Shown piece by piece: positions 17,328 through 38,913 of a DNA stretch of 64,000 nt. Both the position numbers and the translations under genes were made by a program. The notes beneath the pieces are model-generated. The model worked only from the letters and a program-made list of their open reading frames with translations, had not been told where the DNA came from and searched no databases. The DNA comes from Burkholderia pseudomultivorans (lineage in GTDB: Bacteria; Pseudomonadota; Gammaproteobacteria; Burkholderiales; Burkholderiaceae). The DNA lies in assembly GCF_001718415.1 (NCBI RefSeq), contig NZ_CP013378.1, positions 310,001 through 374,000 of the forward strand, given 5' to 3'. Numbering within the stretch: position 1 is the first letter of the stretch; the number at the start of each line of letters is the position of its first letter.

Positions 17328-17356
17328 GATACGGCGGCGGAGCGCGAACGGATGCA
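17328..17356 (-). promoter_or_regulatory. Putative ECF-sigma promoter of the globin-like lipoprotein gene
   Basis: Read on the minus strand: TGCATCCG (17356-17349), 15-nt spacer, CGTATC (17333-17328). This exact layout recurs at six other places between 17 and 39 kb. It would place transcription start about 70 nt before the 17248 start codon. Confidence 0.75.
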
Positions 17357-17439
17357 GTGGCGATTGAAGACGGGCACGGTTGTCGACACCGTTGCCATTC
17401 CGTGGATCGAGGATCTGTCCGCGATGAAGTGTTCAACCG

Positions 17440-17468
17440 TGCATCCGCTGCACGGTTGGTCTCGTATC
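17440..17468 (+). promoter_or_regulatory. Putative ECF-sigma promoter of the fasciclin gene, overlapped by an inverted repeat
   Basis: TGCATCCG (17440-17447), 15-nt spacer, CGTATC (17463-17468), about 40 nt upstream of the start at 17514. The -35 lies inside a perfect 9-bp inverted repeat, AACCGTGCA (17435-17443) and TGCACGGTT (17449-17457), which could be an operator. Confidence 0.75.
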
Positions 17469-17513
17469 TCCGATTGCTTCCAGTCAACGGCGGCAATCTT
17501 TCGGAGAACGAAA

Positions 17514-18098
17514 ATGAAATCTTGCGGCAAAGCAAAACTGGGTGGTGCGGCGCTCGCCCTCGCATTTGCAACGTGCATCTACGCGCCGGCCACCGAGGCC
17601 GGATCCATGTCGATGGAGCAGACCGTCGAGGTGGGTGGCGCTGCGATGTACCCGTCGAGGAACATCATCGAAAACGCGGTGAATTCTCACGATCACACGA
17701 CCCTGGTCGCGGCGGTCAAGGCGGGTGGGCTGGTCGACACATTGTCGAGCAAGGGGCCCTTCACGGTATTTGCACCGACCAACGACGCATTCGCCGCGTT
17801 GCCGGCCGGCACGGTGCAAACATTGTTGAAGCCGGAGAACAAGGCGATGCTCGTCAAGGTGTTGACGTATCACGTCGTATCCGGACGACTCACGGCGTTC
17901 GACCTTGCCAGGGCGGTCGAGCAAGGTGGCGGCAAGGCGACACTGAAGACGGTCGAAGGCGATTCCCTGATCGTCAGCCGTGGCGCGAACGGGCTGGCCG
18001 TGACCGACGACAAGGGCAATGTCGCGCACGTCACGATCGGCGATGTCATGCAGTCCAATGGCGTGATTCACGTGGTCGACTCCGTGCTGATGCCCTGA
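17514..18098 (+). CDS. Secreted fasciclin (FAS1) domain protein
   Basis: 194 residues. A cleavable signal peptide (CGKAKLGGAALALAFATCIYAPATEAG) precedes one FAS1 domain with the conserved LVAAVKAGGLVDTLSSKGPFTVFAPTNDAFAALPAG, YHVVSGRL and a terminal NGVIHVVDSVLMP. GGAGA lies before the ATG at 17514; an upstream frame extension to 17265 is not used. Bacterial FAS1 proteins of this size are periplasmic or secreted, and some are induced by singlet oxygen or ECF sigma factors. The putative ECF promoter at 17440 and the divergent globin-like lipoprotein support the same role here. Confidence 0.88.
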   Translation: MKSCGKAKLGGAALALAFATCIYAPATEAGSMSMEQTVEVGGAAMYPSRNIIENAVNSHDHTTLVAAVKAGGLVDTLSSKGPFTVFAPTNDAFAALPAGTVQTLLKPENKAMLVKVLTYHVVSGRLTAFDLARAVEQGGGKATLKTVEGDSLIVSRGANGLAVTDDKGNVAHVTIGDVMQSNGVIHVVDSVLMP

Positions 18099-18261
18099 TG
18101 CCTCAGCCTGTATCGGGAGGAAGGCGTGATGTGCGGAAGCAGGCCGTGCGCGATTGCACATCACGTCGCCCCCGGTGTGTCGTCGGGGCGCCCCGTCGCA
18201 CGGTCGAGCCCCAACGTTCCGATCGGCAATTCGTGATTCGATTCCGGCTAGCGATCGAAGG

Positions 18262-19782
18262 TCACTTCATTTGGCTCTGTGTATTCAGGATCTCTACCGA
18301 ACTGAGGGCTCGCGCGCGTGCAACCTGGTGATCCACGATCGGGAAGGGATAACTTGCGCCGAGCGCGATGGATGCTTCCCGCAGCGCTTCAGCGGAAGCG
18401 GTCCATGGGCTGTGGAGTGTTTCGGCGGGGAGTGCAGACAGTTCGGGCACCCACCGCCGCGTGTATTCGCCGCTCGAGTCGAACTTTTCCCCCTGCAGGA
18501 CAGGATTGAAGATTCGAAAATACGGGGCCGCGTCGGCGCCGCTTCCTGACACCCATTGCCACCCGGCGGGATTGCTTGCCTCGTCCGCGTCAACCAGCGT
18601 ATCCCAGAACCATGCTTCGCCCTCGCGCCAGTCGATCAGCAAATGCTTTGTGAGAAATGATGCTGTCACCATGCGCACGCGGTTGTGCATCCAGCCTGTG
18701 TGCCAAAGCTCGCGCATGCCGGCGTCGACCAGCGGGTATCCGGTTTTCCCCCTTTGCCACGCGCGAAGCGCCTTGGCGTCGGTACGCCACGGCATGGCGT
18801 CAAACTGACGCCGAAAATTGAACTGATGAAGGGGTTCGCAGTGGTAGAGAAGGTAATACGAGAATTCTCTCCATCCGAGTTCACTGAAGAACTTGTTCAA
18901 TGACTCATTTTTGGCATCGTCAATGCGAACAACTCGCCTGCTTCGCATTGCGTCTACCGCTGATAACGTCGCGTACCACACCTGCCGGGCCGAGATATTT
19001 CCGAAGCGAAGATACGGAGAAAGCCGGCTCGTCGCTCGAGTGGCCGGAAAATCCCGAGCGCCGGCATAGTCGGAAAACGAGTTTTCAATGAAGGCCTCGA
19101 GTTGATGCCCGGCCGCTTCCTCGCCGCATCGCCAGGTCGCTCGCAAGCCCTCCGCCCAATCCGGCGTCGAGGGCTGCAGTGCAAGTTCGGAAAGCGTACT
19201 GACGTGTGCGCTGACGTTTCTGGAGACGGGAAAGAACGTGATCCGGGCGGGCGCCGGCAGCGGGCATGGCGGGAAAAAGTTATCGCGGCGAGCGGCTCTC
19301 CAGTACGCGCTGAATACCTGGAACGGCAAGCCTTCGCGCGTGGCCACCGTCCAGGGTTCCCGCAAGAGATGGCCGTTGAATGTCGACACGTCGATGCCGC
19401 GCCCGATCAGGTCTTTCTTGATCGATGCATCCATTTCCGTTTGCGCTTTCGAGTAGCGGCGATTCCAGAAAACCATTGCCGCCCGGGTCTCGACGGCGAG
19501 GCTCCTGATGGCTTCATGTTCGTTACCGCGAAGCACGAGCAGCGAGCCGCCGAGAGCGGAAAGCGAGTCGTCGAGTTTTTTCAATGACTCGTGCAGCCAC
19601 CACTTTTGCGCGCCCCCCATGGCGCGCCCGAGCTTCGGGGCAGGGTCGTAGACGTAGACGCAAGCAACAGGATGGCCGGTACTGACCGCATGAGAGAGCG
19701 CGGGATTGTCGCTGAGTCGTTGGTCATCCCGAAACCATACGATAACGGGGCGGGATTCATGCGGCAATTCGGTGCGTGTCAT
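18262..19782 (-). CDS. phrB: Deoxyribodipyrimidine (CPD) photolyase, class I
   Basis: 506 residues. The N-terminal antenna-binding Rossmann domain starts VIVWFRDDQRLSDNPALSHA. The FAD/DNA-binding C-terminal half carries RLSPYLRFGNISARQVW, LGWREFSYYLLYH, GYPLVDAGMRELWHTGWMHNRVRM and DADEASNPAGWQWVSGSG, which are photolyase signatures. It repairs cyclobutane pyrimidine dimers using blue light. It lies 74 nt downstream of the DUF2878 gene, probably in one transcript from the ECF promoter at 20667-20695. Confidence 0.95.
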   Translation of the reverse strand: MTRTELPHESRPVIVWFRDDQRLSDNPALSHAVSTGHPVACVYVYDPAPKLGRAMGGAQKWWLHESLKKLDDSLSALGGSLLVLRGNEHEAIRSLAVETRAAMVFWNRRYSKAQTEMDASIKKDLIGRGIDVSTFNGHLLREPWTVATREGLPFQVFSAYWRAARRDNFFPPCPLPAPARITFFPVSRNVSAHVSTLSELALQPSTPDWAEGLRATWRCGEEAAGHQLEAFIENSFSDYAGARDFPATRATSRLSPYLRFGNISARQVWYATLSAVDAMRSRRVVRIDDAKNESLNKFFSELGWREFSYYLLYHCEPLHQFNFRRQFDAMPWRTDAKALRAWQRGKTGYPLVDAGMRELWHTGWMHNRVRMVTASFLTKHLLIDWREGEAWFWDTLVDADEASNPAGWQWVSGSGADAAPYFRIFNPVLQGEKFDSSGEYTRRWVPELSALPAETLHSPWTASAEALREASIALGASYPFPIVDHQVARARALSSVEILNTQSQMK

Positions 19783-19856
19783 GTGTGGTGCCTGAGAAGG
19801 TATGTTGGCAATTTGAACGGGATCGGAGATAAAGCCGGCTTGCGTCGCTTCCGGCT

Positions 19857-20474
19857 CTATCCGGCGCGGGCGTCATTCATGTCGCCTGCGCCGATTGGCG
19901 GAGGAGAAGGGCGCGTTACGCCATCCCAATGGCTTGCAATCGCAAGCGCGGCCGGCAAGATGAACGCCCAGCCGGTTGCGAGAACGACGAGCGCTGCAGC
20001 CGGATCTTTGAAATGAACGGCCCCCAGCGCCGCACCTGCGCGAAAGGACGCGGGGCCGGCGAACGCGCCGACGAGCGCCGAGACGAGCGGTCGCGCCCGA
20101 AGCCAGGGCAGCAAGGTGTTGAGTTGAATCGCGAACAGCGCCCACAGCCCCGCGAGCCAGTACGGCGCTGTACCTTTGAGAAAAACGCCGTTCGGGTACA
20201 CGAGCAGGCCGGAATGTGCAACGGCGCTGTCCCACAACCATCCGGACACCGTGACCGTGATGACGATCCGCGCCTCGGATGCGGGCCGACGCGCGAAGAG
20301 AAGATGGCCGGTTGTCGCGATCAGCGCATAGGTGACGCCCCACGCCGCGTGATGCGATGCGGCAGTCATCACGCATACCAGCCATCCTGTCTGGGTCGTC
20401 GCGAGATAGATGCACACGCGAGCGGCGCCGGACTTTTTCGTGCTCGACGTCGGTTGATTCGGCGCGCTTCTCAT
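19857..20474 (-). CDS. DUF2878-family integral membrane protein
   Basis: About 205 residues from MRSAPNQPTSSTK. It has several hydrophobic helices and DUF2878-like features: GWLVCVM, GWLWDSAVAHSGLLVYP, APYWLAGLWALFAIQLNTLLPWL and GAFAGPASFRAGAALGAV. The function of the family is unknown; it often sits next to photolyase genes. The start is uncertain: the frame is open to 20579 and no strong ribosome site marks 20474. It is the first gene downstream of the ECF promoter at 20667-20695. Confidence 0.75.
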   Translation of the reverse strand: MRSAPNQPTSSTKKSGAARVCIYLATTQTGWLVCVMTAASHHAAWGVTYALIATTGHLLFARRPASEARIVITVTVSGWLWDSAVAHSGLLVYPNGVFLKGTAPYWLAGLWALFAIQLNTLLPWLRARPLVSALVGAFAGPASFRAGAALGAVHFKDPAAALVVLATGWAFILPAALAIASHWDGVTRPSPPPIGAGDMNDARAG

Positions 20475-20666
20475 GATCGTTCGCGGCGGATCGGTAACGG
20501 CATGCTCGCCGTGCCGCCATGTCGACGTTGCATCTCGGGGAAAGTGGCAGGTAGAACGTTCATGGCAGACGGCTCTCACTATCGTCGACGAGCGGACTCA
20601 CCACCGGACGATTGCTTGGCAGCGAGCGACCGTCGGCATTCCGCGTTGATTCACCTATCCACTCCA

Positions 20667-20695
20667 CATACGACTCTCCGCTGCGCACGGATGCA
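20667..20695 (-). promoter_or_regulatory. Putative ECF-sigma promoter of the DUF2878-photolyase operon
   Basis: On the minus strand: TGCATCCG (20695-20688), 15-nt spacer, CGTATG (20672-20667). It points toward DUF2878 and phrB, leaving a leader of roughly 190 nt. It is divergent from the promoter at 20750-20778. Confidence 0.75.
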
Positions 20696-20749
20696 CTTGC
20701 GCAGGGAAGATCTGGATGCCGTCAAGGGGCGCGGCTGCCCCGCGATGCA

Positions 20750-20778
20750 TGCATCCGCTTGCGCGCAATCGCCGTAAA
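20750..20778 (+). promoter_or_regulatory. Putative ECF-sigma promoter of the alpha/beta-hydrolase lipoprotein gene
   Basis: TGCATCCG (20750-20757), 15-nt spacer, CGTAAA (20773-20778), about 45 nt before the start codon at 20830. It shares the intergenic region with the oppositely directed promoter at 20667-20695. Confidence 0.72.
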
Positions 20779-20829
20779 CCACAAACCAGGCGGCGGATGC
20801 GGCCGGAATCGTCAGGAATGGGGATATCC

Positions 20830-21789
20830 ATGAACATGAAAGCCGGACTCGTCGTCCTGTCGGTGCTGCTCGCGGCCGGTCTCCTCTCCGCGTGCAGCCC
20901 GGTGCGGCTCCTGAATGCGCTGACGCCGAGCTACACGTTCAGTCTTTTCGCAGGTATCCCGTACGGATCCGGCGAACGCCAGGTGCTCGACGTCTACTTG
21001 CCCACGCGCGTCTTGCATCACTGGCCGGCCGATGCGAGTGCGGGCGCCCCTGTGGTCGTGTTCCTTTACGGCGGAAGCTGGCAGTCCGGCGAGCGCAAGG
21101 ACTATCTGTTCGTGGGCGAGGCGCTCGCGTCGAGGGGCTTTGTTGCCGTCTTGCCCGACTACAGGACGTATCCGGCGACCACCTTTCCCGGTTTCGTCGA
21201 CGATGCGGCGCAGGCGGTGGCGTGGGCACGCGAGCACGCGGTTGCGTTCGGCGGCGATCCACATCGCCTGTTTCTGATGGGGCACTCTGCCGGCGCACAG
21301 ATTGCCGCGTTGCTTGCGACCGACGGCCGCTATCTGGCGGCACAGGAGATGCGCAAGAGCGATATCGCCGGCGTGATCGGCCTGGCCGGGGCTTACGATT
21401 TCCTGCCGCTGCGCGACGCGACGCTTGAAAGGATCTTCCCGGAGGAAGCGCGCGCCGGGAGCCAGCCCATTCGATTCATCCAGGGTACGGAGCCGCCGAT
21501 GTGGCTGGCCGTCGCGGAAAACGACACGGTGGTCGAGCCCGGCAACACGACCCGCTTCGCGCGCGCGCTGCAAGACAAGGGCGATACCGTCGTGGTCATG
21601 CGTTACAGGAACGTGAGCCATGCATCGATCGTCGGTGTGCTGGGCGCGCCGTTGCGAGGCTTGGCGCCAGTGCTCGACGATCTCTCCGCGTTCGTGGATC
21701 GCGTCGCGAATGCGTCGAATGCCGGCGCCACGAGCAGGCAGCCAACATCGCCTGCCGCCGTGGCTCGTTCTTCCGTTGCGGCTCGGTGA
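20830..21789 (+). CDS. Alpha/beta-hydrolase (carboxylesterase-like) lipoprotein
   Basis: 319 residues. A signal sequence ends in the lipobox LLSAC (about residue 19). The esterase core shows VVFLYGGSW (oxyanion region), nucleophile loop GHSAGAQIA, acid in VAENDTVVEPG and His in NVSHASIVG, so the catalytic triad is complete. It is predicted to be a periplasmic or outer-membrane-anchored carboxylesterase of the BD-FAE/arylformamidase-like group with unknown substrate. In-frame ATGs at 20818, 20830 and 20836 are close together; 20830 is chosen as a compromise. The ECF promoter at 20750 suggests stress induction with the photolyase. Confidence 0.82.
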   Translation: MNMKAGLVVLSVLLAAGLLSACSPVRLLNALTPSYTFSLFAGIPYGSGERQVLDVYLPTRVLHHWPADASAGAPVVVFLYGGSWQSGERKDYLFVGEALASRGFVAVLPDYRTYPATTFPGFVDDAAQAVAWAREHAVAFGGDPHRLFLMGHSAGAQIAALLATDGRYLAAQEMRKSDIAGVIGLAGAYDFLPLRDATLERIFPEEARAGSQPIRFIQGTEPPMWLAVAENDTVVEPGNTTRFARALQDKGDTVVVMRYRNVSHASIVGVLGAPLRGLAPVLDDLSAFVDRVANASNAGATSRQPTSPAAVARSSVAAR

Positions 21790-21874
21790 TCGAGGCAAGC
21801 GCCGCATTGCGCGCGAAACAGCATCGCCACCTGCCGTCGTGGGCAGGTCGGAGCAGCCGGCGGCGCGTGCCGCG

Positions 21875-22846
21875 CTACAGCGCCTTCAGTTCCGGCGTCG
21901 TCCCGCCCAATCCCTCTTCGCGAAGAATGACGGCAAGCGCCGTCTCGAGCAATTCGGCCGCCCGGTTCGCTGCGTCTCCAAGGTGGCGGTGCAGCAGCGC
22001 ATCGGCCGGCGATCGAGACACGCATTCGTCGCTGTATCGCTCGAACGCACTGAGCTGCATGATCAATTCGGAGAGATGACGCGGACACTCGCATTTGACG
22101 GTGGTGGACAGGCCGCTGAGCGACGCGAGCGTCGCCTCGTCGAAGCGTCGCCGCGTGCGCAGCCAGAGCCCGCGATCCGCGTCATTCGATTGGCGCGACT
22201 TGACGACGGCTTGCGCCAGTTTCGAAATGATCGATATCGGGTTGGTCTGGCCTTCCGTCGACCGGAACAGCTCGAACCCCGACAGACGCGCCAGCTCGAC
22301 CGCCTCTGCCGTGCCGAACCCGTATACGACGGCCACGGCGTGCGCGTTGAGCTGTTGCGCCACGGCAGCGAGCTGCGAAACGACATCCTCATGGAGCGAC
22401 GTGGTCGTCGCGATGAGGGCATCGACTGACGTACCCGCATGCGCGCTCGTGTCGTCGAGCGAGTCGATTCGCGCGGCGATCCGGATTCCCATTCGCTCTA
22501 TCGCGGATTCCGGAATCGAAAGCGCGCCGACGACCGCGAGGCTCACACTTGCCTCGTGAAACACCGGGTCACGCGTATTCGTCAACGACAACGCCTCGAG
22601 TTCCTCGCGGCTCAGGCTGGCGATCGAGCCGATCGCGTGGCCCTGATTGACGAGCGTTTTCAGCAATCGAATTCGCTGGACGTCGTCGTCCGAGTACAGC
22701 CGTTGTCCGGACGGCGTTTTGGGCGGCGCAACCACGCCATAGCGCCTTTCCCAGATTCTCAGCGTGGCTGCCGGCATGCGCGCCAGGCGCGCGGCCTCGC
22801 CGCTGCGATAGCGATGGGGCGTATCGCGATCCTTGCGAGGGGGCAT
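21875..22846 (-). CDS. MerR-family regulator, LitR-like without a visible B12-binding motif
   Basis: 323 residues. The N-terminal MerR helix-turn-helix YRSGEAARLARMPAATLRIWERRYGVVAPPKTPSGQRLYSDDDVQRI is canonical. The middle domain (LAVVGALSIPESAIERMG ... VDALIATTTSLHEDVV ... AHAVAVVYGFGTAEAVELARLSGFELF) has the layout of the LitR/CarH sensor region, but I see no cobalamin E/D-x-H-x-x-G motif. A C-terminal KCECPRHLSEL segment gives paired cysteines plus His. Class II LitR proteins of pseudomonads similarly lack B12 and act in light responses with a separate photoreceptor. It is divergent from the FeS photolyase gene and has a 46-bp promoter block shared with the paralogue at 29068. Confidence 0.82.
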   Translation of the reverse strand: MPPRKDRDTPHRYRSGEAARLARMPAATLRIWERRYGVVAPPKTPSGQRLYSDDDVQRIRLLKTLVNQGHAIGSIASLSREELEALSLTNTRDPVFHEASVSLAVVGALSIPESAIERMGIRIAARIDSLDDTSAHAGTSVDALIATTTSLHEDVVSQLAAVAQQLNAHAVAVVYGFGTAEAVELARLSGFELFRSTEGQTNPISIISKLAQAVVKSRQSNDADRGLWLRTRRRFDEATLASLSGLSTTVKCECPRHLSELIMQLSAFERYSDECVSRSPADALLHRHLGDAANRAAELLETALAVILREEGLGGTTPELKAL

Positions 22847-22881
22847 CGTTGCTCTCCTGAAGTTGACGTACCGTTGTCTCA

Positions 22882-22927
22882 GGATTGTACGCAGTTTGCG
22901 TGAAATACGAAGCAGGAAAGTGATTCA
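22882..22927 (-). promoter_or_regulatory. Promoter block of the LitR-like gene, conserved upstream of its paralogue
   Basis: This 46-bp segment aligns without gaps to 29918-29963 (33 of 46 identical by my count). On the minus strand it starts TGAATCACTTT and ends with a -10-like TACAAT (22889-22884) about 38 nt upstream of the start codon. The shared sequence suggests self- or cross-regulation by a LitR-like protein. Confidence 0.6.
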
Positions 22928-24650: not shown

Positions 24651-24676
24651 GCCGTTCCGTCATCGGCCGCCGCCGT

Positions 24677-26739: not shown

Positions 26740-26741
26740 TC

Positions 26742-27320: not shown

Positions 27321-27419
27321 TCAGCGGCGCGCTGCCGCCGCCGCTGCAAATGCCGATTCAACGGCGCGCGGTTCGACTCGCGCAGCGCGATCGAACCGCG
27401 AGGTGATTCGCGCGCTCAT
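27321..27419 (-). pseudogene. Eroded anti-sigma factor gene (start only)
   Basis: An ATG overlaps the stop of the ECF sigma gene (ATGA), exactly as the intact anti-sigma gene does at 38139. Only 32 codons follow (MSARITSRFDRAARVEPRAVES...), with no anti-sigma features. I read it as the remnant of a deleted partner, though a chance ORF is possible. Confidence 0.4.
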
Positions 27420-28968: not shown

Positions 28969-29067
28969 GTCGGTTCGTTTCTCGAGGTTAGGGGGTCATG
29001 CGATGGATCGCGACAGAGGCGATGATTTGCCTGTGTTTCTTGGATAAAAACCGGGCGAACGCCGCCG

Positions 29068-29883: not shown

Positions 29884-30708
29884 GGGGCCTCCCTCGGTCG
29901 ATTCATGCGTCACAGCTGGATTGTATGCAAATTTTCCGGAAAGTGAAGCGGAAAAGTGATTCACATAACAATTTGTCCCGGATTATTTTGAGTCATTTGA
30001 CGCGACGGTGCTGTAAGGTTGCGTTGCGAGCACGAGAGTCCTCATTTGTGCAAGGGAATTTCGTGTTGGCGTGGCGTATGAAACGATTTCCGGGGTCAAT
30101 GGGGTGGCGGTTAATTTGTGCCATGACGGGCCAGAAAGTACGCCGGAAGGCGCGCGATTTCGATGTATGCATCGACCGTGTCGCACATTTGCGTGTCGAT
30201 ACGGCGAGATCCGGCCCGCGGCCGTTCCCGCAAAGCGTCGTGCAGTTGAAACGGGGCGGAGTGAGCCGCTTATAGGGAACCAGACGGCCACGGGGAAGGG
30301 GGAGGACTGCCCTGACGAGCGCGTCTGTGCGCGCACCGGCGCCGATCGATCCGGATTGCCCAAAACAGGCGCGAGCATTCCGTCTCGGATCGAAGCGCCA
30401 ACCGGGTCCGCGCGCTGCTCGCGACCGGCTCGTCAACGCGAAGTCACCAACGTGCAGCGTTTGGCTTCATGCGGGAGCGCGGCCGCCGATTTCGACGGCA
30501 ACGCTCCGAGCAATATCGGACTTCGTCCCAGGCGGCTTTCCATTTCTTTCTCCAGCTGAAAGGCAAGCCGCAGGTCTCGCATGTCTTCTCAGGCAAGTGC
30601 ATCTTGTTGACCATGGCGAATCACGCGTCGAGAAGGATCCTGGCGAACTGTCCGGTCGAGCGGCGCTGCCGGCGTCGATACACCGGACCATCGCCGCTCA
30701 CCGTCGAA
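29884..30708. other. 825-bp region without a supported gene, upstream of the LitR-like paralogue
   Basis: The first 80 bp hold the promoter block at 29918-29963. The following ~450 bp are AT-richer than the surroundings and contain only short overlapping frames on both strands with no recognisable protein. The last part abuts the stop of the chalcone-isomerase-like gene. I see no RNA gene or strong terminator. Confidence 0.5.
29918..29963 (-). promoter_or_regulatory. Promoter block of the LitR-like paralogue, conserved with 22882-22927
   Basis: Same 46-bp block as upstream of the other LitR-like gene, in the same orientation relative to the gene. The -10-like TACAAT is at 29925-29920, about 37 nt from the GTG at 29883. 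It would drive the paralogue, folE and sigma gene. Confidence 0.6.
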
Positions 30709-31242
30709 TCAGCGTGCATCGTCGCCCAGCAACTGACGGCGCAACGACTTTGCCCGCGTGCGCGGGTCGAGCCAGATCGAGAAGAATGCGCGCGCGAACG
30801 CCGGGTCGGTCACGTCGGCCGTGAGGCGGCCGTTGGTGTAGAAGCGTGCGCCGCGCTCGGGCACATACACACCGCACAGCACGTCGCCGCGCGATACGTC
30901 GGTGAACGCCCGTTCGATATCGCGGCGCCATGCTTCGAGCGTCGCCGCCGGCAACGGTGCGGGTGCGAGTCGCTCGATCTCGTCCATGCCCGTCGAGACT
31001 AGCCGCTCGCCTTTCACGTCGTGACGGTAGGCAAGCGACAACGCAAACGGCGTGTCGAACGCGCCCGGCGGCCGGGGCGCCCACAGCTGGGCGTCGTACA
31101 GACAGATGCCCAGGATGCAGAACCGGCCGGATCCGATCAGTCGCGCCGACGCGATGTCGTCGACGCAGCTCGCGCCGGCGAACAAGGGTGCAGCCAGCGC
31201 CGCGGCCGCGACTGCGGCGAGCATCGCAAGCCTGCGCCGCAT
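30709..31242 (-). CDS. Exported chalcone-isomerase-like protein
   Basis: 177 residues with an Ala-rich signal peptide (MRRRLAMLAAVAAAALAAPLFAGA). The mature part has features of the bacterial chalcone-isomerase-like family: LIGSGRFCILGICLYDAQLWAP, ALSLAYRHDVKGERLV, GDVLCGVYVPERGARFYTNG and FFSIWLDPRT. These proteins share the fold of plant chalcone and fatty-acid-binding CHI proteins and may bind fatty acids. The start codon lies 1 nt after the stop of the Cfa-like gene, so it is the last gene of that operon. Confidence 0.85.
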   Translation of the reverse strand: MRRRLAMLAAVAAAALAAPLFAGASCVDDIASARLIGSGRFCILGICLYDAQLWAPRPPGAFDTPFALSLAYRHDVKGERLVSTGMDEIERLAPAPLPAATLEAWRRDIERAFTDVSRGDVLCGVYVPERGARFYTNGRLTADVTDPAFARAFFSIWLDPRTRAKSLRRQLLGDDAR

Positions 31243-31243
31243 G

Positions 31244-32461
31244 TCAGCCGCCCGACGACACGATGAAATGCATCACGTCGGTCCGCCGCTCGACAAATCC
31301 CGCTTCGCAATAGGCGAGGTAGAGGCGCCAGGTGCGAATGAACGTCTCGTCGAACCGTTGCGCACGCACCGAGTCGATGCGCGCCTCGAACGCGGCCCGC
31401 CAGGTGCGCAGCGTGCGCGCGTAGTCGTCGCCGAACGCGAGCACCGGTTCGGCGGCCAGGCCGGCCCGCCGCGCGGCATCGACGAAACGCTCCGGGCTCG
31501 GCAGCATCCCGCCGGGAAAGATGAACTCGCGAATGAAGTCGCTTGACGTGCGGTACGCGTCGAATAGCGGCTCGATGATCGTGATCGATTGAATCAGCGC
31601 GCGAGCACCGGGCTTCAGGCGCTGCCTGAGCGTGTCGAAGTACACCGGCCAGAATGTTTCGCCCACGGCCTCGAACATCTCGATCGACACGATCGCGTCG
31701 TATTGGCCGTCGACGTCCCGATAGTCGCGCAATTCGAGCGTGACGCGATCGGACAGCCCGTCGCGCGCCATGCGCTCGCGGGCCAGCGCGTATTGCGCCT
31801 GCGAGACGGTGACGCCATGCACGCGGATGCCTTGCCGCGCGGCATGCGCGGCGAACCCGCCCCAGCCGCAGCCGATCTCGAGCACGTGCATGCCGGCGCG
31901 CAGGCCGAGCGAATCGACGATGCGCTGATACTTCGCCGTTTGCGCGTCGGCGAGCGAACGCTGCGCGTCGCCGTCGAAGCATGCGCTCGAATACGTCCAC
32001 GTGTCGTCGAGCCACAATCCGTAAAAGTCGTTGCCGAGATCATAGTGCGCGTGGATGTTGCGGCGGCTGCCGGCCCGCGTATTCATCCTCAGCCGGTGAC
32101 GCAGCGCGTACCAGAGGCGTGCCAGGCGGCCGCCGGTCACCGTCTTCGCGATCACCGGCTGGTTGCGGATCGCGAGGCGCAGCAGCGCGACGAGTTCGGG
32201 CGTCTCGATCCAGCCGGCGCGATACGCTTCCGCGAATCCGATGTCGCCCGCGCGCAGGATCGCACGGCACGCCCGCCAGTCGCGGACCTGCAGCGTCGCG
32301 GCCGGCTGGCGGTGCGGATCGCCGAACACATGCTGCGCGCCTTCGGGCGTCACGAGCGTCAGGTGACCGTCGTTGATTTGCCGGAGCAGCGCGATGAACA
32401 ACCGGGCCGAGAGCGGCATCGCCGGTTGCGAGGCGGAAGACAGCAGGCGCAGCAAGGTCAT
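31244..32461 (-). CDS. Cyclopropane-fatty-acyl-phospholipid synthase-like SAM methyltransferase (first of two)
   Basis: 405 residues from MTLLRLLSSAS. Cfa features are IHAHYDLGNDFYGLWLDDTWTYSSACF, the SAM motif VLEIGCGWGGFAAHAA and SIEMFEAVGETFWPVYF. It should methylate double bonds of membrane acyl chains (cyclopropane or branched methyl products). The start overlaps the DUF1365 stop by ATGA. With the adjacent flavin oxidase and DUF1365 it matches lipid-modification operons of light- and singlet-oxygen-stressed proteobacteria. Confidence 0.92.
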   Translation of the reverse strand: MTLLRLLSSASQPAMPLSARLFIALLRQINDGHLTLVTPEGAQHVFGDPHRQPAATLQVRDWRACRAILRAGDIGFAEAYRAGWIETPELVALLRLAIRNQPVIAKTVTGGRLARLWYALRHRLRMNTRAGSRRNIHAHYDLGNDFYGLWLDDTWTYSSACFDGDAQRSLADAQTAKYQRIVDSLGLRAGMHVLEIGCGWGGFAAHAARQGIRVHGVTVSQAQYALARERMARDGLSDRVTLELRDYRDVDGQYDAIVSIEMFEAVGETFWPVYFDTLRQRLKPGARALIQSITIIEPLFDAYRTSSDFIREFIFPGGMLPSPERFVDAARRAGLAAEPVLAFGDDYARTLRTWRAAFEARIDSVRAQRFDETFIRTWRLYLAYCEAGFVERRTDVMHFIVSSGG

Positions 32462-33312
32462 GGGCGAGCCTCGTGATCGGACATCGCCGAGCGGCCGTGT
32501 GGCGACGCGCCCGGCGAACGGGACAATGGCGAATCGGCAGCGGCGGAACGGCCGGGGGGCGTCTTGCCGTGGAACGGCACGCGCGCGAGCCACAGCCGCA
32601 GCGCTTGCCAATGAATGCGAATGACGACGTTGATCGCGTTCAGCGGCTGCCGGGCCAGCGCGCGCCATGCGCGTGCCGCCGTCAGCGGCGCGGACCGCAT
32701 GCCGATTGCCGTGCGCAGCAGCAGACCGTCGTCGTCGCGATAGTCGATTGCCACGCTCAGATGGTCGCCGCACTGACGCACGCGAAACGCGTAATCGCCG
32801 ACGATGTCGCAAAACGGCGAGACATGAAACGTCTTGCGGCAGACGAGCACGGTGTCGGCGTCGATCGGTGCGTGACGCATCGCACTCAGCAGGTAGCCGT
32901 GGTGCGCACCGAACGTGTTGCGCACATCGGCGTACAGCGCGCGCAGCCGGCCCGCGCGGTCGTAGCAGTACCAGAAGCTCACCGGATTGAATGCGTAGCC
33001 GAAGACGCGCGGGATCGTCTGCAGCCAGATCGGGCCGTCGGCGGGAATGCCGGCGCGCGCGAGGACATCGCGCATCCACGGGCCGAGCGCGCGGCCGTCG
33101 CGCGGGCCGTAGTCGCGGGAAGCGAGCGCAAGCGGGGCCCGGCGATCGATGCCGAACCAGCCGACGTCGATCTCGTCCAGCCGCTCGACGTCGCAGCAGA
33201 CCTGGAATATCGGGTACGCGAACGCATGGCGCACCGGCCGCAGCCGTTCATGCATCACGGTGCCGACGAGCAGCCGGGCGGCCATGCCGTCGCGGGCAAA
33301 GGGCGCGTTCAT
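32458..33312 (-). CDS. DUF1365 domain protein
   Basis: 284 residues, MNAPFARDGMAARLLVGTVMHERLRPVRHAFAYPIFQVCCDVERL..., with FGYAFNPVSFWYCYDRAGRLRALYADVRNTFG and KTFHVSPFCDIVGDYAFRV, the hallmarks of DUF1365. The molecular function is unknown; the family is nearly always between an FAD amine-oxidase-like gene and a Cfa-like gene, as here. ATGA overlaps with both neighbours show tight translational coupling. Confidence 0.9.
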   Translation of the reverse strand: MNAPFARDGMAARLLVGTVMHERLRPVRHAFAYPIFQVCCDVERLDEIDVGWFGIDRRAPLALASRDYGPRDGRALGPWMRDVLARAGIPADGPIWLQTIPRVFGYAFNPVSFWYCYDRAGRLRALYADVRNTFGAHHGYLLSAMRHAPIDADTVLVCRKTFHVSPFCDIVGDYAFRVRQCGDHLSVAIDYRDDDGLLLRTAIGMRSAPLTAARAWRALARQPLNAINVVIRIHWQALRLWLARVPFHGKTPPGRSAAADSPLSRSPGASPHGRSAMSDHEARP

Positions 33313-34613
33313 GGGCGAGCCCAGGACGGCGCGATGCCGAAGCTGCGGGCGACGCGCAACGCCGATTTCAGTCCATCCTCATGGAACCCGTAGCCCGTCC
33401 ACGCTCCCGCAAACCACGTATTGCGCCGCCCTTGCAGCATCGGCAGGCGATGCTGCGCATCCACGGCCGCGAGATCGAGCAGCGGGTGTTCGTAATCGTA
33501 GCGGCCGAGCTGGGTGTCGGGCGCGGGCTCGTCGACCGGATTCAACGTGACGACGACCGGCGAGCGGAACGGCAACGGCTGCAACTGGTTGAGCAGGTAG
33601 CTCACGCACACCGGCGATTCGCCGCCCGTGCGCCTCGGCCGGCCGCCCAGGTAGTTCCATGCCGACCACACGCGCCGTCGGCGCGGCAGCAACGCGGTAT
33701 CGGTATGAAGCACCGCGACGTTGTGCTGGTAACGCACGGCGCCGAGCACGTCGCGCTCGGCCTTGCTCGCATCCGCGAGCAGCCGCAGGCTGGTCGGCGC
33801 ATGGCACGCGAGCACGATCGCGTCGAAACGCTCGTGACCGGCCGTATCGGTCGCCACCGTCACGCCCGCGTCGTCGCGCCGTATCGCGCGGACCGGCGTA
33901 TTCACGCGCACGTCGTCGAGCGTCGCGGCGATGCGCTCGACGTACTGCCGCGCGCCGCCCGCGACGGTGCGCCAGGTCGGCCGGTTGTTGACCTGCAACA
34001 ACGCGTGATTCAGGCAGAAGCGCAGGAATGTCGCCGCCGGAAACCGCAGGATGTCGTTGGCCGCGCTCGACCAGATGGCGGCCGCCATCGGCAGCAGGTA
34101 GTGATGCTGGAACGATGCGCCGTAACCGCCGGCCGTGAGCAGTTCCCCGACCGAAAGACGCTGCCGGCTCGCCGATTCGAGGTGATCTTGCGCGGACGCG
34201 TTGAAGCGCAGGATGTCGCGCAACATGCCGAGAAAGGTCGGCGAGAACAGGTTGCGGCGTTGTGCGAACACCGTGTTCAGGTTGCTGCCGGCCCATTCGA
34301 GCCGGCCGCCGTCGACCGAAACCGAAAACGACATGTCGGTCGAATGGGCGGCCACGCCCAGTTCGTCGAACAGCGCGATCAGGTTCGGATAGGTCCGGTC
34401 GTTGAACACGAGGAATCCCGTGTCGACGGGGTGGCGTGCGCCGTCGAGGTCGACGTCGACCGTGTGCGTGTGACCGCCGAGATAGTCGGCGGCCTCGAAC
34501 AGCGTCACACGGTGACGGCGGGCCAGCAAGTACGCGCTGGCCAGGCCCGCGATGCCGGCGCCGACGACGGCAATCCGCCGGCCGGGCAGCGACATTCTAA
34601 GTTCCGGGTGCAT
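33309..34613 (-). CDS. FAD-dependent amine-oxidase-like protein (fatty-acid desaturase/oxidase candidate)
   Basis: 434 residues. The FAD-binding start RIAVVGAGIAGLASAYLLARRHRVTLFEAADYLGGHTHTVDVD, DTGFLVFNDRTYPNLIALFDELG and a C-terminal FAGAWTGYGFHEDGLKSALRVA place it in the NAD(P)/FAD amine-oxidase family. In Rhodobacter a flavoprotein of this kind next to a Cfa-like methyltransferase desaturates methylated fatty acids. Start 34613 is chosen (GGAG 10 nt upstream); MSLPGRR at 34595 is possible. It is the first gene of a four-gene operon under the ECF promoter at 34667-34695. Confidence 0.88.
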   Translation of the reverse strand: MHPELRMSLPGRRIAVVGAGIAGLASAYLLARRHRVTLFEAADYLGGHTHTVDVDLDGARHPVDTGFLVFNDRTYPNLIALFDELGVAAHSTDMSFSVSVDGGRLEWAGSNLNTVFAQRRNLFSPTFLGMLRDILRFNASAQDHLESASRQRLSVGELLTAGGYGASFQHHYLLPMAAAIWSSAANDILRFPAATFLRFCLNHALLQVNNRPTWRTVAGGARQYVERIAATLDDVRVNTPVRAIRRDDAGVTVATDTAGHERFDAIVLACHAPTSLRLLADASKAERDVLGAVRYQHNVAVLHTDTALLPRRRRVWSAWNYLGGRPRRTGGESPVCVSYLLNQLQPLPFRSPVVVTLNPVDEPAPDTQLGRYDYEHPLLDLAAVDAQHRLPMLQGRRNTWFAGAWTGYGFHEDGLKSALRVARSFGIAPSWARP

Positions 34614-34666
34614 CGCGAATGGTCTCCGTCAGTCACAAGTGCAGGTTCGGGAATCACATGTGCTCA

Positions 34667-34695
34667 TATACGTCGCACCGCACGCGGCGGATGCA
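34667..34695 (-). promoter_or_regulatory. Putative ECF-sigma promoter of the FAD oxidase-DUF1365-Cfa-CHI operon
   Basis: On the minus strand: TGCATCCG (34695-34688), 15-nt spacer, CGTATA (34672-34667). It lies in the 92-bp gap between the lipocalin and the FAD oxidase gene, with a leader of about 47 nt. Confidence 0.75.
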
Positions 34696-34705
34696 GGCGC
34701 GGTTG

Positions 34706-35326
34706 TCATTCGCGATCGCCGGGCGACGCGAAGCCCGGCTTGCCGATCTGGTCGGGTGTTTGCGGCACCCGCCTGAAGCGCGACGTGTCGTAACCCATCG
34801 CATCGAGCCGGGCGAGCAGCGAGCGATAGGTGGCCTCGTCCATCGTCGGCTCGCGCGAGAAGATCCAGCCGAGCGTCTTGCCCGGGTAGCCGAGGATCGT
34901 GTACCGGTAGTCGGGGTCGACGTAGAGCGTCAGTTGCGTGACATACACCGGCCAGAACAGCCGCACGCGCCATTCGCCGCCGCCGCTGCCGGGCTTGACG
35001 GCGTCGACGAACCGGTAGTGCTTCTCGGGCTGGTCGAAGCCGCCTTTGCGGCCGACGAATGCGTCGTCGATCCGGCCGTCGTCGCGCAGGCGCCACTCGG
35101 CCCGGCTGCCGACGAAGCGGCGTTCCGCGAAATACGGGATGTTCGCGATCACGTACCAGCGGCCCATGTAGCGCGGCAGGTCGACGGGTACGGTCGACAG
35201 CGGGACGGCGGCGCGCGGATTCGGGTTCGGCGGGCTGCCCGAGCACCCGGCGGCCCCGATCGCGAGCGCCGTCACGACCGTGACGGCGATGCGGCGGACG
35301 ACCCGGTATGAGATTTCGGCCCTCAT
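34706..35326 (-). CDS. Lipocalin-family lipoprotein (first of two)
   Basis: 206 residues. The signal peptide ends at the lipobox GAAGC (near residue 27). Lipocalin motifs follow: [21 protein letters not shown] (G-x-W), then ...[46 protein letters not shown], as in Blc-like proteins. It is probably an outer-membrane-anchored carrier or storage protein for (modified) fatty acids or lysophospholipids. Its ATG overlaps the stop of the upstream Cfa-like gene. Confidence 0.9.
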
Positions 35327-36423
35327 GCGAGAACCCGGCGCTTGTCGAACAGATAGTGGGCGACGCCCCATTCCTGCCCGTCGGCATAGCCGAACAGCTC
35401 GGCGACCGCCATGTAGAACATCCGCCAGCGCTGGAACCAGATGCGGGCGTCGGCGCCGTAGACCGTCTCGAAAATCGGCATGATCCGGGGGCGCGCCGCA
35501 TCGAGCGACGCGAGCCACTGATTGGCCGTGCGGGCGTAGTGAGTCCCGTCGAGCCACCATTGGCGGGCGATGCGCACGTCGTCCTGGAACCGCAGCAGCA
35601 GGTCGGCCGACGGCATCGTCCCGCCCGTGAAGAAATGGCGCGACATCCAGTCGGTGTCGTCGTGCACCGCGAAGTGATAGGCGAGCAGCTTGTGCGCGAA
35701 GATGTGCACGAAGAGCTTGCCGTCGTCGTGCATCCAGCGCGCGATTTTGGCGAGCAGTTGCCCGTAGTTCTTCATGTGCTCGAACATCTCGATCGAGAGC
35801 ACGCGGTCGAAACCGGCATCCTCGGGATCGAAGTCGAACTCCACCACGTTGCCGGTCACGATGCGCAGATTCGTCAGCCCGCGCTGCGCCGCGCACCGCT
35901 CGATGAAGTGGCGTTGACCGTGCGAATTCGACAGGCCGACGATCTGCGCGGCCGGGTAGCGCTCGGCGAGCCAGAGCGACAGCGAACCCCAGCCGCATCC
36001 GAGGTCGAGAATGCGCTGGCCGTCCTCCAGCCTGGCGCGCTGCGCGTACAACGCCAGCATGGCTTCTTCTGCTTGCGACAGCGTTTCGTCGCCGCACGGG
36101 TAATAGCCGCACGAATATTTGAGCCGCGGGCCGAGATGGGCCTCGAAGAAGCTGCCGGGCACTTCGTAATGCTGCGTGTTCGCCGCGAGCGTTTCGATTG
36201 CGATCGGGCTCGCGCCCAGTTCACGCACCAGCGTGTCGTAGGCCGCCGCGCGCCGTTCGCCGTCATACGCGTGTTCGTCGCGCAGGCGTTGCTGCATGAG
36301 CGAGCGCATGCCGGCCCGGATCAGCCGGTCCGGCAGCCAGCCGCGCTCGCAGCAGCGGATCAGCCAGGCGTCGTTGGGTGCCGCCGCCGAGGCCGGCGAC
36401 GGTTGCGAGGTGGTAGCGGTCAT
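35323..36423 (-). CDS. Cfa-like SAM-dependent methyltransferase (second of two)
   Basis: 366 residues. [38 protein letters not shown] is the substrate-side motif, [17 protein letters not shown] is the SAM loop, and [15 protein letters not shown] follows. It differs from the first copy in its short N-terminal part and its C-terminus ([26 protein letters not shown] ending), so it is a separate subfamily rather than a duplicate. ATGA overlaps bind it to DUF1295 upstream and lipocalin downstream. Confidence 0.9.
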
Positions 36424-37253
36424 GATCGCGTGCTCCGGTCTTCAGGGTGATCGGATCGAGTGGGGGAAGGGCCGGGCGCCGGCCTCGGAGGCCACGGAAC
36501 GATGGCGCTGGTCGTGCGCATGTACTCGCGGTAGCCCGGCCGGCTTTGCACCAGACGCGCTTCGAGCAGCGGCAAGCCGGATACCTTGAGCAGCAGCCAT
36601 GCCATCAGGAGTGGCGGGAACAGCGTCAGCCAGCCCCACGGCATGCCGATCGCCAGCGCCGTGTAGGCGAGCCAGTGCACGCACTCGAAAAAATAGTTGG
36701 GGTGCCGCGAATAGCGCCACCAGCCGGCGCGACAGACCTGGCCGCCGTGGTCGGGATCCGCGAGAAACCGCTTGAGTTGCCGGTCGGAGGCCGTCTCTCC
36801 GGCGACGGCGGCGATCCAGATCGCCACTGCCGCGGCAATCGCGAACCGGGACGGGGTTGCCGCGCTGTATGCGGGGATAAAGAACGCGATGGACAGCAGC
36901 ATCGAGATCAGCGCCTGCAACTGGAACAGCCAGAACATGTTGCGCGGCGCGGCGTCGCCCCACTGCAGGCGGAACTGTCGATAGCGCGGGTCTTCCGGCT
37001 GCCCGCTGTTGCGCCGCCACAGGTGCCGCGCGAGTCGCAGCCCCCAGATGCCGCCGCCCGCGGCGACGAGCGCACGATTCAATTCCGGGCCGGTCGCCAG
37101 CGCGGCGACGAACACGGCGACGCCGCCGAGCGTCGCGGCCCAGACCGGATCGATCATCCCGGCGTTCCGGGAATGCAATTGGGTAATCCACACCGTCGTG
37201 AAGGACAGGATCAGTCCGACGAAGGCGAGGAGGGCAACGACGACGGCGGGCAT
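36420..37253 (-). CDS. DUF1295 (steroid-5-alpha-reductase-like) membrane protein
   Basis: 277 residues with about seven hydrophobic segments. The C-terminal domain has [25 protein letters not shown] and a late [20 protein letters not shown], typical of DUF1295/SRD5A-like proteins that reduce or methylate lipophilic substrates with NADPH or SAM. It is the first gene of the DUF1295-Cfa-lipocalin operon and starts about 20 nt after the ECF promoter at 37280-37308. Confidence 0.88.
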
Positions 37254-37279
37254 ACGGGCTCCGAGGGCGCGATACCCTT

Positions 37280-37308
37280 TATACGGAGCCGGCGACCGAT
37301 CGGATGCA
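37280..37308 (-). promoter_or_regulatory. Putative ECF-sigma promoter of the DUF1295-Cfa-lipocalin operon
   Basis: On the minus strand: TGCATCCG (37308-37301), 15-nt spacer, CGTATA (37285-37280). It lies in the 151-bp gap downstream of the anti-sigma gene. Confidence 0.75.
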
Positions 37309-37404
37309 GACGAATGCGACGAGATGCGTGATCTCGTCTAGAGAGACGGCAGCGGGCGGCACGCCGCCGCGCTTTACGTTTGCGGGTCGAGCGCGTTGCG
37401 CGCG

Positions 37405-38139
37405 TCAAGTGGTGTGCATCGCGCCGGTGGCGAGCACCGGCCCGGTGGGTTGGCCGCTCGGCGAGCCGCCGTGAGGCTCGAGCGATACGGCGAGCACCGC
37501 GCGTGCATCGAGTCGCGCGACGATCGCTTGCGGCAGCGTCATCGACGCCGGTGTGTTCGACGCGAATACGCCGAGCGAGATCGGCTTCGCATTCGGCGGA
37601 ATCAGCCAGAGCTCCGTCGAGCGGTCCGCAGCGACCGGTGGCGTGTTCGCGGGCACCACGACCATCCGGGCACGCCGCAAGTCGACCGTGGCGGTCCACC
37701 GTGCGACGCCATCCGCTTGTGCCAGCGTGGCCGCCATGTAGTGGCTGTCGTCGGCAGCGGGGCGCGGCGGCGCTTCGCCCACCCGGATCACGTTGACCGT
37801 GAGCAGCCCGAGCGCCGCCACGCTCGCGCCCATGCCGACCCAGCGCCACAGTTTCAGGTTGTTCCACCATCCGTCGGATGGCGCAGCGCTGCGCGGGCGC
37901 GGCGGCGGGATGAAGCCCAGTTGGTGCTGGATCCTCGTCCAGGTTCTCGCGGGCGGGTCGACGGGCGTGACGTCGTCCGCGAGCGGGGCGAGGTGGCGCT
38001 GCCAGCGCTCGAGCGTGGCTTGCAACGCCGGGTCGCGCGCGGCGGACTGCTCCAGCTCGCGGCGCGCGTCTGCGTCGAGCACGCCGAGGGCGTATTCGGC
38101 GCAGCGCAATTCGGGATCGTGATCGGCCGGCGTATTCAT
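37405..38139 (-). CDS. Anti-sigma factor, RskA-like
   Basis: 244 residues from MNTPADHDPELRCAEYALGVLDADARRELE, an anti-sigma N-terminal domain. One membrane helix follows near residues 100-120 (LWRWVGMGASVAALGLLTVNVI), then a periplasmic RskA C-terminal domain ending AVSLEPHGGSPSGQPTGPVLATGAM. It should hold the adjacent ECF factor at the membrane until an envelope signal triggers release. ATG overlaps the sigma stop (ATGA); a start 12 nt upstream is less likely. Confidence 0.9.
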   Translation of the reverse strand: MNTPADHDPELRCAEYALGVLDADARRELEQSAARDPALQATLERWQRHLAPLADDVTPVDPPARTWTRIQHQLGFIPPPRPRSAAPSDGWWNNLKLWRWVGMGASVAALGLLTVNVIRVGEAPPRPAADDSHYMAATLAQADGVARWTATVDLRRARMVVVPANTPPVAADRSTELWLIPPNAKPISLGVFASNTPASMTLPQAIVARLDARAVLAVSLEPHGGSPSGQPTGPVLATGAMHTT

Positions 38140-38747
38140 TGCTCCAGACACACCTTCAGCTGCATCAGGCTGCGCCGGATCCAGCTCTTCATGGTTCCGA
38201 GCGGCACACGCAGTCGCGCTGCCAGCTCACTGTAGGTCGCGCCGCTGAAGAAGGCCTCGCGCACCGCGCGGCCCTGCTGCGGATCGAGTTGCGCGAGGCA
38301 TCGCTCGAGGCGCAGGCGCTCCTGCGAGGCCTCCGCCAGCGCGGCGGGCGTCGGATCTTCGGCGGGAAGCTCCAGCGCCTGTTCGTCGTCGAGTTGCGCG
38401 TCGCGATGCTGCCGCAAGCGGTCGATCGTCTTGTTGCGCGCCAGCGTGATCAGCCACGTCATCGCGCCGCCGCGCGCCGGGTCGAACGCGTCGATACGTC
38501 GCCATGCGGTCGTGTAGACCTCCTGGAGGAGATCCTCGGCTTCCCCGTGATCGTGAAGCATGCGCACGATTGTCCCGAACACCCGCGACGCGGTCAGCCG
38601 GTACAGCTCCGCGAAAGCCGCCTGGTCGCCGGTTGCTGCCTGAAGCATCACCCGGTTCAGATGTTCGCGGCGAGCGACATCCGCATCGGCATCGCGCGAA
38701 GAGGCTGACTGATCGAAGCCGCTGGCACCGCCTGGCGTGTTGCTCAT
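38136..38747 (-). CDS. ECF RNA polymerase sigma factor, SigK/ECF19-like (second of two)
   Basis: 203 residues from MSNTPGGASGFDQ. Region 2: AFAELYRLTASRVFGTIVRMLHDHGEAEDLLQEVYTTAWRRIDAF...MTWLITLARNKTIDRLRQHRD. Region 4: GRAVREAFFSGATYSELAARLRVPLGTMKSWIRRSLMQLKVCLEQ. It pairs with the RskA-like anti-sigma by ATGA overlap. The promoter at 38885-38913 has the same boxes as those of the neighbouring operons, which fits autoregulation of the sigma factor that reads them. Start uncertain: the frame is open further upstream. Confidence 0.92.
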   Translation of the reverse strand: MSNTPGGASGFDQSASSRDADADVARREHLNRVMLQAATGDQAAFAELYRLTASRVFGTIVRMLHDHGEAEDLLQEVYTTAWRRIDAFDPARGGAMTWLITLARNKTIDRLRQHRDAQLDDEQALELPAEDPTPAALAEASQERLRLERCLAQLDPQQGRAVREAFFSGATYSELAARLRVPLGTMKSWIRRSLMQLKVCLEQ

Positions 38748-38884
38748 GCGAAGTGGATGGCGCGGACCGCCATGATGTGAATGTCGAGCGAAATATAGCA
38801 TTCCCGGATGCATGTGATCGAACGATCGGCGGCGCGCCCGCTGCACGTTGTGCAGCGCGACGCCCGCCGTGATCTCCTCAACCA

Positions 38885-38913
38885 GATACGAGCGACGCGT
38901 CCGCGCGGATGCA
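38885..38913 (-). promoter_or_regulatory. Putative ECF-sigma promoter of the sigma/anti-sigma pair (autoregulation)
   Basis: On the minus strand: TGCATCCG (38913-38906), 15-nt spacer, CGTATC (38890-38885). It is about 130 nt upstream of the sigma start codon and divergent from the second lipocalin gene. Confidence 0.75.

Follow-up and report, generated by a model that had tools for sequence, protein, structure and literature searches.

Background

The closest described relatives of the system analyzed here are the SigK-RskA-MPT83/MPT70 modules of Mycobacterium and the mpt83-sigK-rskA cassette of Yersinia, which share with it a two-cysteine SigK-like sigma factor, the anti-sigma factor RskA and a fasciclin-family target with a sigma site (PMC7509140, PMC9861118; here and below, the cited papers are represented by the excerpts available). 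The paired cysteines of SigK, numbered 133 and 183, are described as co-occurring with full-length RskA; SigK with these cysteines substituted is reported to have minimal activity, and a naturally cysteine-less SigK of Nocardia to have strong activity without being switched by RskA (PMC7509140). The stimulus of the SigK-RskA pair is called obscure, and in M. kansasii light induces fasciclin genes with putative SigK sites (PMC9861118). Here we analyze seven copies of a two-part, promoter-like box in a stretch of 64,000 nucleotides (nt) of the Burkholderia pseudomultivorans genome (assembly GCF_001718415.1, contig NZ_CP013378.1, positions 310,001 to 374,000; hereafter the window, to whose first letter coordinates refer), together with two SigK-like sigma factors of the extracytoplasmic function (ECF) type, ECF-A and ECF-B, that are encoded in the same cluster.

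Similar gene sets have been assigned to other regulators. The RpoE-ChrR singlet-oxygen regulon of Rhodobacter sphaeroides includes, like the present cluster, photolyase, a cyclopropane synthase, a fasciclin protein (RSP_1409) and a folE gene (folE2), and the RpoE of R. capsulatus is reported to be closer to SigK (PMC7074977). In the LitR/CarH regulons (class II in Pseudomonas, class III in Burkholderia), again as here, a MerR-type LitR lies near genes for photolyase, FAD oxidoreductase and folE, as well as furan-fatty-acid synthase and short-chain dehydrogenase (PMC9758184). The blue-light response of Vibrio cholerae is described as being under joint MerR/ChrR control (PMC5241685).

A promoter signature confined to one cluster of the host genome

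The pattern TGCATCCG-N15-CGTAW is present in seven copies in the 64-kb window, against 0.01 expected from 100 dinucleotide shuffles, none of which (0/100) reaches seven. The original prediction, made from the letters of the window, had named these seven copies, and all were found on the strands given, with the 15-nt spacer exact. Its sites are correct but its spans are one base too long (29 nt for a 28-nt pattern), such that the minus-strand boxes begin one base later, at 17329, 20668, 34668, 37281 and 38886, and the plus-strand boxes end one base earlier, at 17467 and 20777. The boxes and the genes that they precede are as follows.

17329..17356, minus strand: box 1, before a truncated-globin-like lipoprotein
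17440..17467, plus strand: box 2, before a fasciclin protein
20668..20695, minus strand: box 3, before DUF2878-photolyase
20750..20777, plus strand: box 4, before an esterase lipoprotein
34668..34695, minus strand: box 5, before FAD oxidase-DUF1365-CMAS-chalcone isomerase-like genes
37281..37308, minus strand: box 6, before DUF1295-CMAS(-lipocalin) genes
38886..38913, minus strand: box 7, before ecfA-rskA (autoregulation)

Across the whole host genome (7,956,789 bases), the pattern matches exactly these seven copies and nothing else, and the reversed pattern gives 0 matches in the 7.96 Mb; the regulon of exact boxes is restricted to 21.6 kb. When the spacer is freed between 10 and 22, TGCATCC-Nx-CGTA has 35 genome matches, of which eight are at N16 (the seven boxes and one more site at C2:3705150) and 0-4 at each other spacing, compared with 23 in total for the reversed pattern. 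With one mismatch allowed and the last W dropped, there are 45 genome places, 38 of them new and scattered, versus 27 for the control, so that weaker sites elsewhere in the host genome are indistinguishable from noise. The danger to which the original prediction had pointed, that the motif might be equally common in shuffled or coding DNA, did not materialize: it is rare in the shuffles and in the genome.

Two trivial explanations were rejected. A chance motif does not fit the expected count in the window or the lack of further exact copies genome-wide, and the boxes are not a plain repeat because the spacer differs between copies while the core is kept.

All seven boxes aim at gene starts, as originally predicted, with the start 27 to 138 nt away. 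The accompanying claim that every copy is intergenic holds with later starts but fails with the longest reading frames, which cross the box in four of the seven units (16559-17578, 17265-18098, 20716-21789 and 38136-38966); therefore, the word intergenic rests on the choice of start. For the two lipoproteins and the fasciclin protein, the downstream ATG opens an apparent signal peptide or lipobox (identified by eye) and appears to be the better start, and for the sigma factor ECF-A the start was taken at the ATG at 38747. The operons behind the boxes were delineated by spacing and strand.

The boxes and the RskA-linked sigma factor

Box 7 precedes the genes of a sigma factor and its likely antagonist.

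38136..38747, minus strand: ECF-A, SigK-like sigma factor with both SigK cysteines (Pfam Sigma70_r2/r4)
37405..38151, minus strand: RskA-type anti-sigma factor (PF10099 RskA_C, 1.5e-22; NF052375 anti-sigma factor, above cut-off)

The best solved relative of ECF-A is SigK (4nqw, 3.3e-33). Its C150 and C200 align with the cysteines at positions 150 and 200 of the 4nqw chain (M. tuberculosis SigK) and would correspond to SigK C133 and C183, assuming a 17-residue tag in that chain. Neither sigma factor of the cluster reaches the 226-bit cut-off of the NCBIfam SigK model NF007228 (160.6 bits for ECF-A, 148.5 for ECF-B), and by this sequence measure both are SigK-like rather than SigK. The gene directly downstream of ECF-A, in an overlapping frame, matches RskA_C with 80.7 bits against a cut-off of 29.4 and no other Pfam family at 0.001, which speaks against an anti-sigma factor of the ChrR type, as found in RpoE-ChrR (ECF11) systems. 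With its adjacent RskA gene and two aligned cysteines, ECF-A fits the SigK-like (ECF18/ECF19) sigma-RskA pairs.

Species genomes were scanned with ECF-A, and the best 79 loci of 448 confirmed stretches (1.5 Mb in all, from Burkholderia, Paraburkholderia, Caballeronia, Pandoraea, Rhodanobacter, Dyella and others) were searched for the box. RskA adjoins the sigma gene in 78 of the 79, the exception being an ECF-B locus (L111). TGCATCC and CGTA at spacing 16 yield 121 sites, in 72 of these loci; each of 18 other spacings (8 to 26) yields 0-3, as do two control patterns at any spacing. The families downstream of the 119 sites followed by a frame recur: the sigma gene itself (20), DUF1295 (18), FAD oxidase (17), fasciclin (15) and desaturase (15), with the remainder in smaller families, and the median distance from box to start is 38 nt. 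By sequence, the putative autoregulatory promoter (box 7) and the fasciclin target (box 2) share one site, in other species as well.

Among seven sets of orthologous promoters, each from 3 to 9 species and with box columns 8 and 28 left out, the 11 core columns vary in 3/77 cases and the spacer columns in 56/105. The motif is thus conserved in relatives, where poor conservation would have counted against the original prediction. In a survey of 65 genomes of the genus, every one of the 23 that encode an ECF-A/ECF-B homologue (E <= 1e-30) carries an exact box (84 boxes altogether), and 20 carry more than one, as do six of the 42 genomes without such a homologue.

Judging from this species comparison, which combines a sharp spacing signature with recurrent downstream families, the boxes appear to act as promoters of the RskA-linked SigK-like sigma factor, its own promoter included, as had been proposed. 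The sequence evidence for the link between ECF-A and the boxes is strong, and the regulon of the original prediction, in which the boxes bring two surface proteins under one response with photolyase and the lipid enzymes, is well supported at this level. The conservation of the box and its position near starts would also suit an operator at which a regulator encoded in the vicinity of the sigma gene binds. We regard this as highly improbable, given that the box consists of two unlike parts at one fixed spacing and precedes the sigma gene along with several unrelated families, and that, for the sigK-rskA cassette, a sigma site ahead of mpt83 is described as reporter-tested in Yersinia and mycobacteria (PMC7509140).

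In many Rhodanobacteraceae loci (L098, L102, L103, L105 and others), a fatty-acid desaturase gene follows the box, and FAD oxidase-DUF1365-CMAS genes lie farther downstream; the one desaturase-family member that was checked (L098) matches PF00487 at 4.2e-22.

A second, cysteine-less sigma factor

The core of the original regulon interpretation stands, but it overlooked another member of this sigma family in the cluster and, as discussed below, a litR-type promoter element.

27416..28120, minus strand: ECF-B, cysteine-less SigK-like paralogue with no RskA beside it; ATG 116 nt after the folE stop

ECF-B is 61% identical to ECF-A. In a comparison of 104 distinct sigma sequences, in which a match within 500 nt was taken as adjacent RskA, 95 combine both cysteines with an adjacent RskA. 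The other nine, all of them ECF-B from nine species, have Gly/Tyr at the cysteine positions and no RskA within 500 nt (9/9), so that by comparison ECF-B does not qualify as a member of a SigK-RskA pair. ECF-B forms one clade (100/100) inside Burkholderiaceae, with a stem of 0.47 changes per column, and its dN/dS of 0.13-0.25 over seven pairs indicates purifying selection.

Region 4.2 of ECF factors reads the -35 element. In this region, ECF-B is 91% identical to ECF-A, against a mean of 92% for 30 ECF-A relatives (L070-L099, two of them Burkholderia); in region 4.1, the corresponding values are 53% and 71%. One genome, G029, offers a natural comparison: its single sigma match at E 1e-30 is ECF-B, RskA is not detected at E 1e-15, and the lipocalin and DUF1295 genes have no ecfA-rskA pair between them. 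The DUF1295, FAD oxidase, esterase and DUF2878 genes each keep a TGCATCC-N16-CGTA box, four in all, whose spacers are unlike those of relatives; the DUF1295 box has A for G at position 8. Taken together, these sequence features suggest that ECF-B most likely reads the same boxes as ECF-A whenever it is made; confidence in this link is moderate.

The rival possibility is that only ECF-A reads the boxes, ECF-B having diverged to another promoter or persisting as a weak relic and the boxes of G029 being remnants. In its favor are the long ECF-B stem and the 14 of the 23 sigma-bearing genomes of the genus that have an RskA-linked sigma factor and no ECF-B and still carry boxes. Against it stand the purifying selection on ECF-B, its near-identical region 4.2 and the four boxes that G029 keeps on spacers unlike those of its relatives, and we consider the ECF-A-only alternative rather unlikely.

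A LitR-type element before folE and ecfB

The predicted connection of ECF-B to light comes from its genomic context.

21875..22846, minus strand: LitR, MerR-type regulator without detectable B12-binding domain, class III-like (PF13411 and PF00376 only)
22909..22926, minus strand: shared element, litR promoter
28237..28968, minus strand: folE, GTP cyclohydrolase I (PF01227), directly upstream of ecfB
29068..29883, minus strand: LitR-like protein without detectable helix-turn-helix, first gene before folE-ecfB
29945..29962, minus strand: shared element before the litR-like-folE-ecfB genes

MerR models alone match LitR, which agrees with class III (MerR helix-turn-helix without B12-binding domain), a class described as occurring mainly in Burkholderia (PMC9758184). 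The ecfB gene follows folE after the 116-nt gap in an apparent operon. The LitR-like protein is 29% identical to LitR residues 102-255 (E 1.3e-15), matches no Pfam family at 0.001 (DUF7092 appears at E 3.5 only), has an open frame in 7/7 ECF-B species read and might serve LitR as a co-sensor or as an antirepressor. Beyond the cluster, in L195 and in G029 (C12:61431-63700), there are a second litR-like copy, which has an element of its own, and two partial LitR matches side by side.

The promoters of litR and of the litR-like-folE-ecfB genes have in common an element of 47 columns with 36 identities, TGAATCACTTTYCYGCTTC...TACAATCC, whose local score of 42 compares with a maximum of 32 in 200 shuffles. 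When up to two mismatches are allowed, its 18-nt core has exactly two matches in the host genome, against 0 for the control. In 9/9 ECF-B species, a copy of the element is found ahead of litR and another ahead of the litR-like gene; among the 12 LitR genomes, 10 have it before litR, namely, these nine and G028. ECF-B is found in nine of the 12 LitR genomes and in none of the 53 others. On this evidence from sequence comparison, LitR may bind the shared element and ECF-B is probably driven by light; through it, the regulon as a whole might respond to light. The light/stress stimulus named in the original prediction is, in itself, suggested by gene content.

Boxes also accompany light genes at a distance from the sigma gene. 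In G015, a box stands ahead of a lipocalin, FAD oxidase, DUF1365, CMAS, DUF2878, folE block (L191) that ends in folE, with the sigma gene 1.2 Mb off, and in G028 there is a box at the LitR cluster (L209), 1.0 Mb from the sigma gene. Both L191 and L209 are LitR-type light clusters with a box before a lipocalin-CMAS-folE block.

Proposed mechanism and its weak points

In the model that we propose, a SigK-like ECF sigma factor would read the seven boxes as -35/-10 promoters (TGCATCC-N16-CGTAT), which together define a local regulon. RskA would hold ECF-A at the membrane until an envelope or redox signal releases it, and ECF-A would then act back on its own promoter, box 7 providing positive feedback together with a brake, RskA. 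The ECF-B duplicate, having lost both SigK redox cysteines and lacking an anti-sigma factor beside it, would constitute an expression-gated arm that reads the same boxes; it would be made together with folE from the promoter with the litR-type element. As that promoter shares its element with the litR promoter, light would switch the regulon on via a LitR-type regulator. We consider the entire model, with boxes read by both an RskA-gated ECF-A and an expression-gated, light-driven duplicate, to be somewhat favored. Its most specific corollary, that two independent inputs, envelope or redox stress via RskA/ECF-A and light via LitR/ECF-B, converge on one promoter set thanks to a redox-freed duplicate, could equally well prove right or wrong.

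Several observations weigh against this model. With respect to the boxes, seven of the 79 loci lack an exact box, and a crude coding-overlap score, unreliable given stop-to-stop frames in GC-rich DNA, flags 58 of the 121 sites; for this set, we make no claim that all sites are intergenic. Of the 42 genomes of the genus without either sigma factor, 24 hold at least one exact match (30 in total). We inspected 19 loci with exact matches, 17 (of the 30) from genomes without the sigma factors and two from sigma-bearing genomes. The 17 are mostly coding: one recurrent match lies antisense inside a methyltransferase-like frame and another within a frame resembling a RES protein (both named by eye). 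The exact boxes of L043 (G008) and L044 (G010) precede a frame in genomes without ECF-A or ECF-B and reflect either chance or a different sigma factor; the exact box of L058 (G028) also precedes a frame rather than sitting in one.

With respect to ECF-B, the loss of the cysteines and the absence of RskA count as one event rather than nine because ECF-B is one clade; G029 is a single genome, in which the boxes may have lacked the time to decay; and ECF-B could be weak, since artificially cysteine-less SigK is reported to be minimally active (PMC7509140). ECF-A suffices for the retention of boxes, given the 14 genomes that keep them without ECF-B, and because 11 of these 14 also lack LitR, light may matter for ECF-B alone. 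With respect to the element, it is noisy genus-wide (49 matches in 34 of the 65 genomes versus 17 for the control), 28 of these matches, each carrying two mismatches, fall at places other than litR or folE, and it is absent before litR in G015, where it stands by folE instead, and in G061. The co-occurrence of ECF-B with LitR is an association rather than independent evidence, because the nine genomes share one syntenic cluster.

The connection to light is where the model meets its other serious competitor, under which the regulon holds but responds to envelope or redox stress only, the light genes being run independently by LitR and a housekeeping sigma factor as in Pseudomonas. In line with such a division of labor, the Pseudomonas LitR promoter that was tested is described as being of the housekeeping type (PMC9758184), and most box loci have no LitR match within the stretch. 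It accords poorly with the location behind boxes of photolyase genes here and of the G015 block ending in folE, and with the restriction of ECF-B to LitR genomes. We deem a regulon that responds to stress alone improbable, if worth keeping in mind, and retain the two-sigma model with a light-driven ECF-B.

Genes behind the boxes and neighboring genes

The unit names given in the original prediction stand, except that the globin-like label is weak in Pfam.

16559..17248, minus strand: lipoprotein with truncated-globin features (distant-relative and alignment evidence)
17514..18098, plus strand: fasciclin (FAS1) protein (PF02469, 2.2e-34)
18262..19782, minus strand: DNA photolyase (PF03441/PF00875)
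19857..20579, minus strand: DUF2878 membrane protein, start uncertain (PF11086)
20830..21789, plus strand: esterase lipoprotein (PF20434)
30709..31242, minus strand: chalcone isomerase-like protein (PF16036)
31244..32431, minus strand: CMAS-type lipid methyltransferase 1 (PF02353)
32458..33312, minus strand: DUF1365 protein (PF07103)
33309..34613, minus strand: FAD amine-oxidase-like protein (PF01593)
34706..35371, minus strand: second lipocalin-like lipoprotein (32% to the lipocalin at 38998, E 1.7e-20)
35323..36423, minus strand: CMAS-type lipid methyltransferase 2 (PF02353)
36420..37253, minus strand: DUF1295 protein (PF06966)

The mycobacterial sigK locus also carries DUF1295, CMAS, DUF1365 and FAD-oxidase genes.

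The Pfam globin match of the lipoprotein behind box 1 (E 0.04) is under the cut-off. A relative in L135 (28% identity, tblastn E 3e-5) matches Pfam Bac_globin at 7.7e-12, and the Q-F, G-P, Y and D-M..A-H columns are invariant in an alignment of six sequences, four of them near-identical, the invariant histidine being H135 of alignment A1. This protein is a possible surface globin in the SigK-like regulon.

Just to the left of the cluster, positions 9918-15369 are a mobile-element landing site with a phage-type integrase, a transposase pair (HTH_Tnp_1 and rve), an HU-like protein and a YhcG/DUF1016 nuclease-like protein. A DUF3429 membrane protein is encoded at 26670-27140 on the plus strand and overlaps the end of a short-chain dehydrogenase gene.

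Comparison with known systems

SigK-RskA-fasciclin cassettes are already known and, by analogy, precedents exist for each half of the proposed model; among the matches listed for the open-licence PMC literature, the combined regulon in Burkholderia was not found described. Gene sets that overlap in photolyase, CMAS/FAD lipid enzymes, fasciclin and folE appear to have come under ChrR, under LitR with a housekeeping sigma factor and under RskA. The cluster described here, with a SigK-like promoter set among photolyase, folE and LitR, seems a tractable place to ask whether the older role of the family lies in photo-oxidative stress, and an unleashed sigma copy that is seemingly tied to LitR may bear on the stimulus of the SigK-RskA family. 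From the 121 sites, a sharp promoter consensus for beta- and gammaproteobacteria can be drawn that lends itself to testing.

Unlike the SigK-RskA-MPT83/MPT70 systems, the present locus has seven local promoters, adds photolyase, esterase, globin-like and lipocalin genes, and includes a second, cysteine-less sigma factor without RskA and a LitR within the cluster. The anti-sigma factor of R. sphaeroides RpoE is ChrR, whereas here it is of the RskA type. In P. mendocina, LitR is described as directly repressing a housekeeping promoter (PMC9758184); here, in contrast, the effector genes are located behind ECF boxes, and in the host genome the litR-type element is found only before litR and the litR-like-folE-ecfB genes. 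The nearest analogue of ECF-B is the SigK of Nocardia, which likewise has no cysteines and for which strong activity without RskA switching is reported; that protein, however, is described as paired with a truncated, still inhibiting RskA (PMC7509140), whereas ECF-B is a duplicate without RskA that, in eight of the nine species, is encoded near an intact SigK-like/RskA pair.

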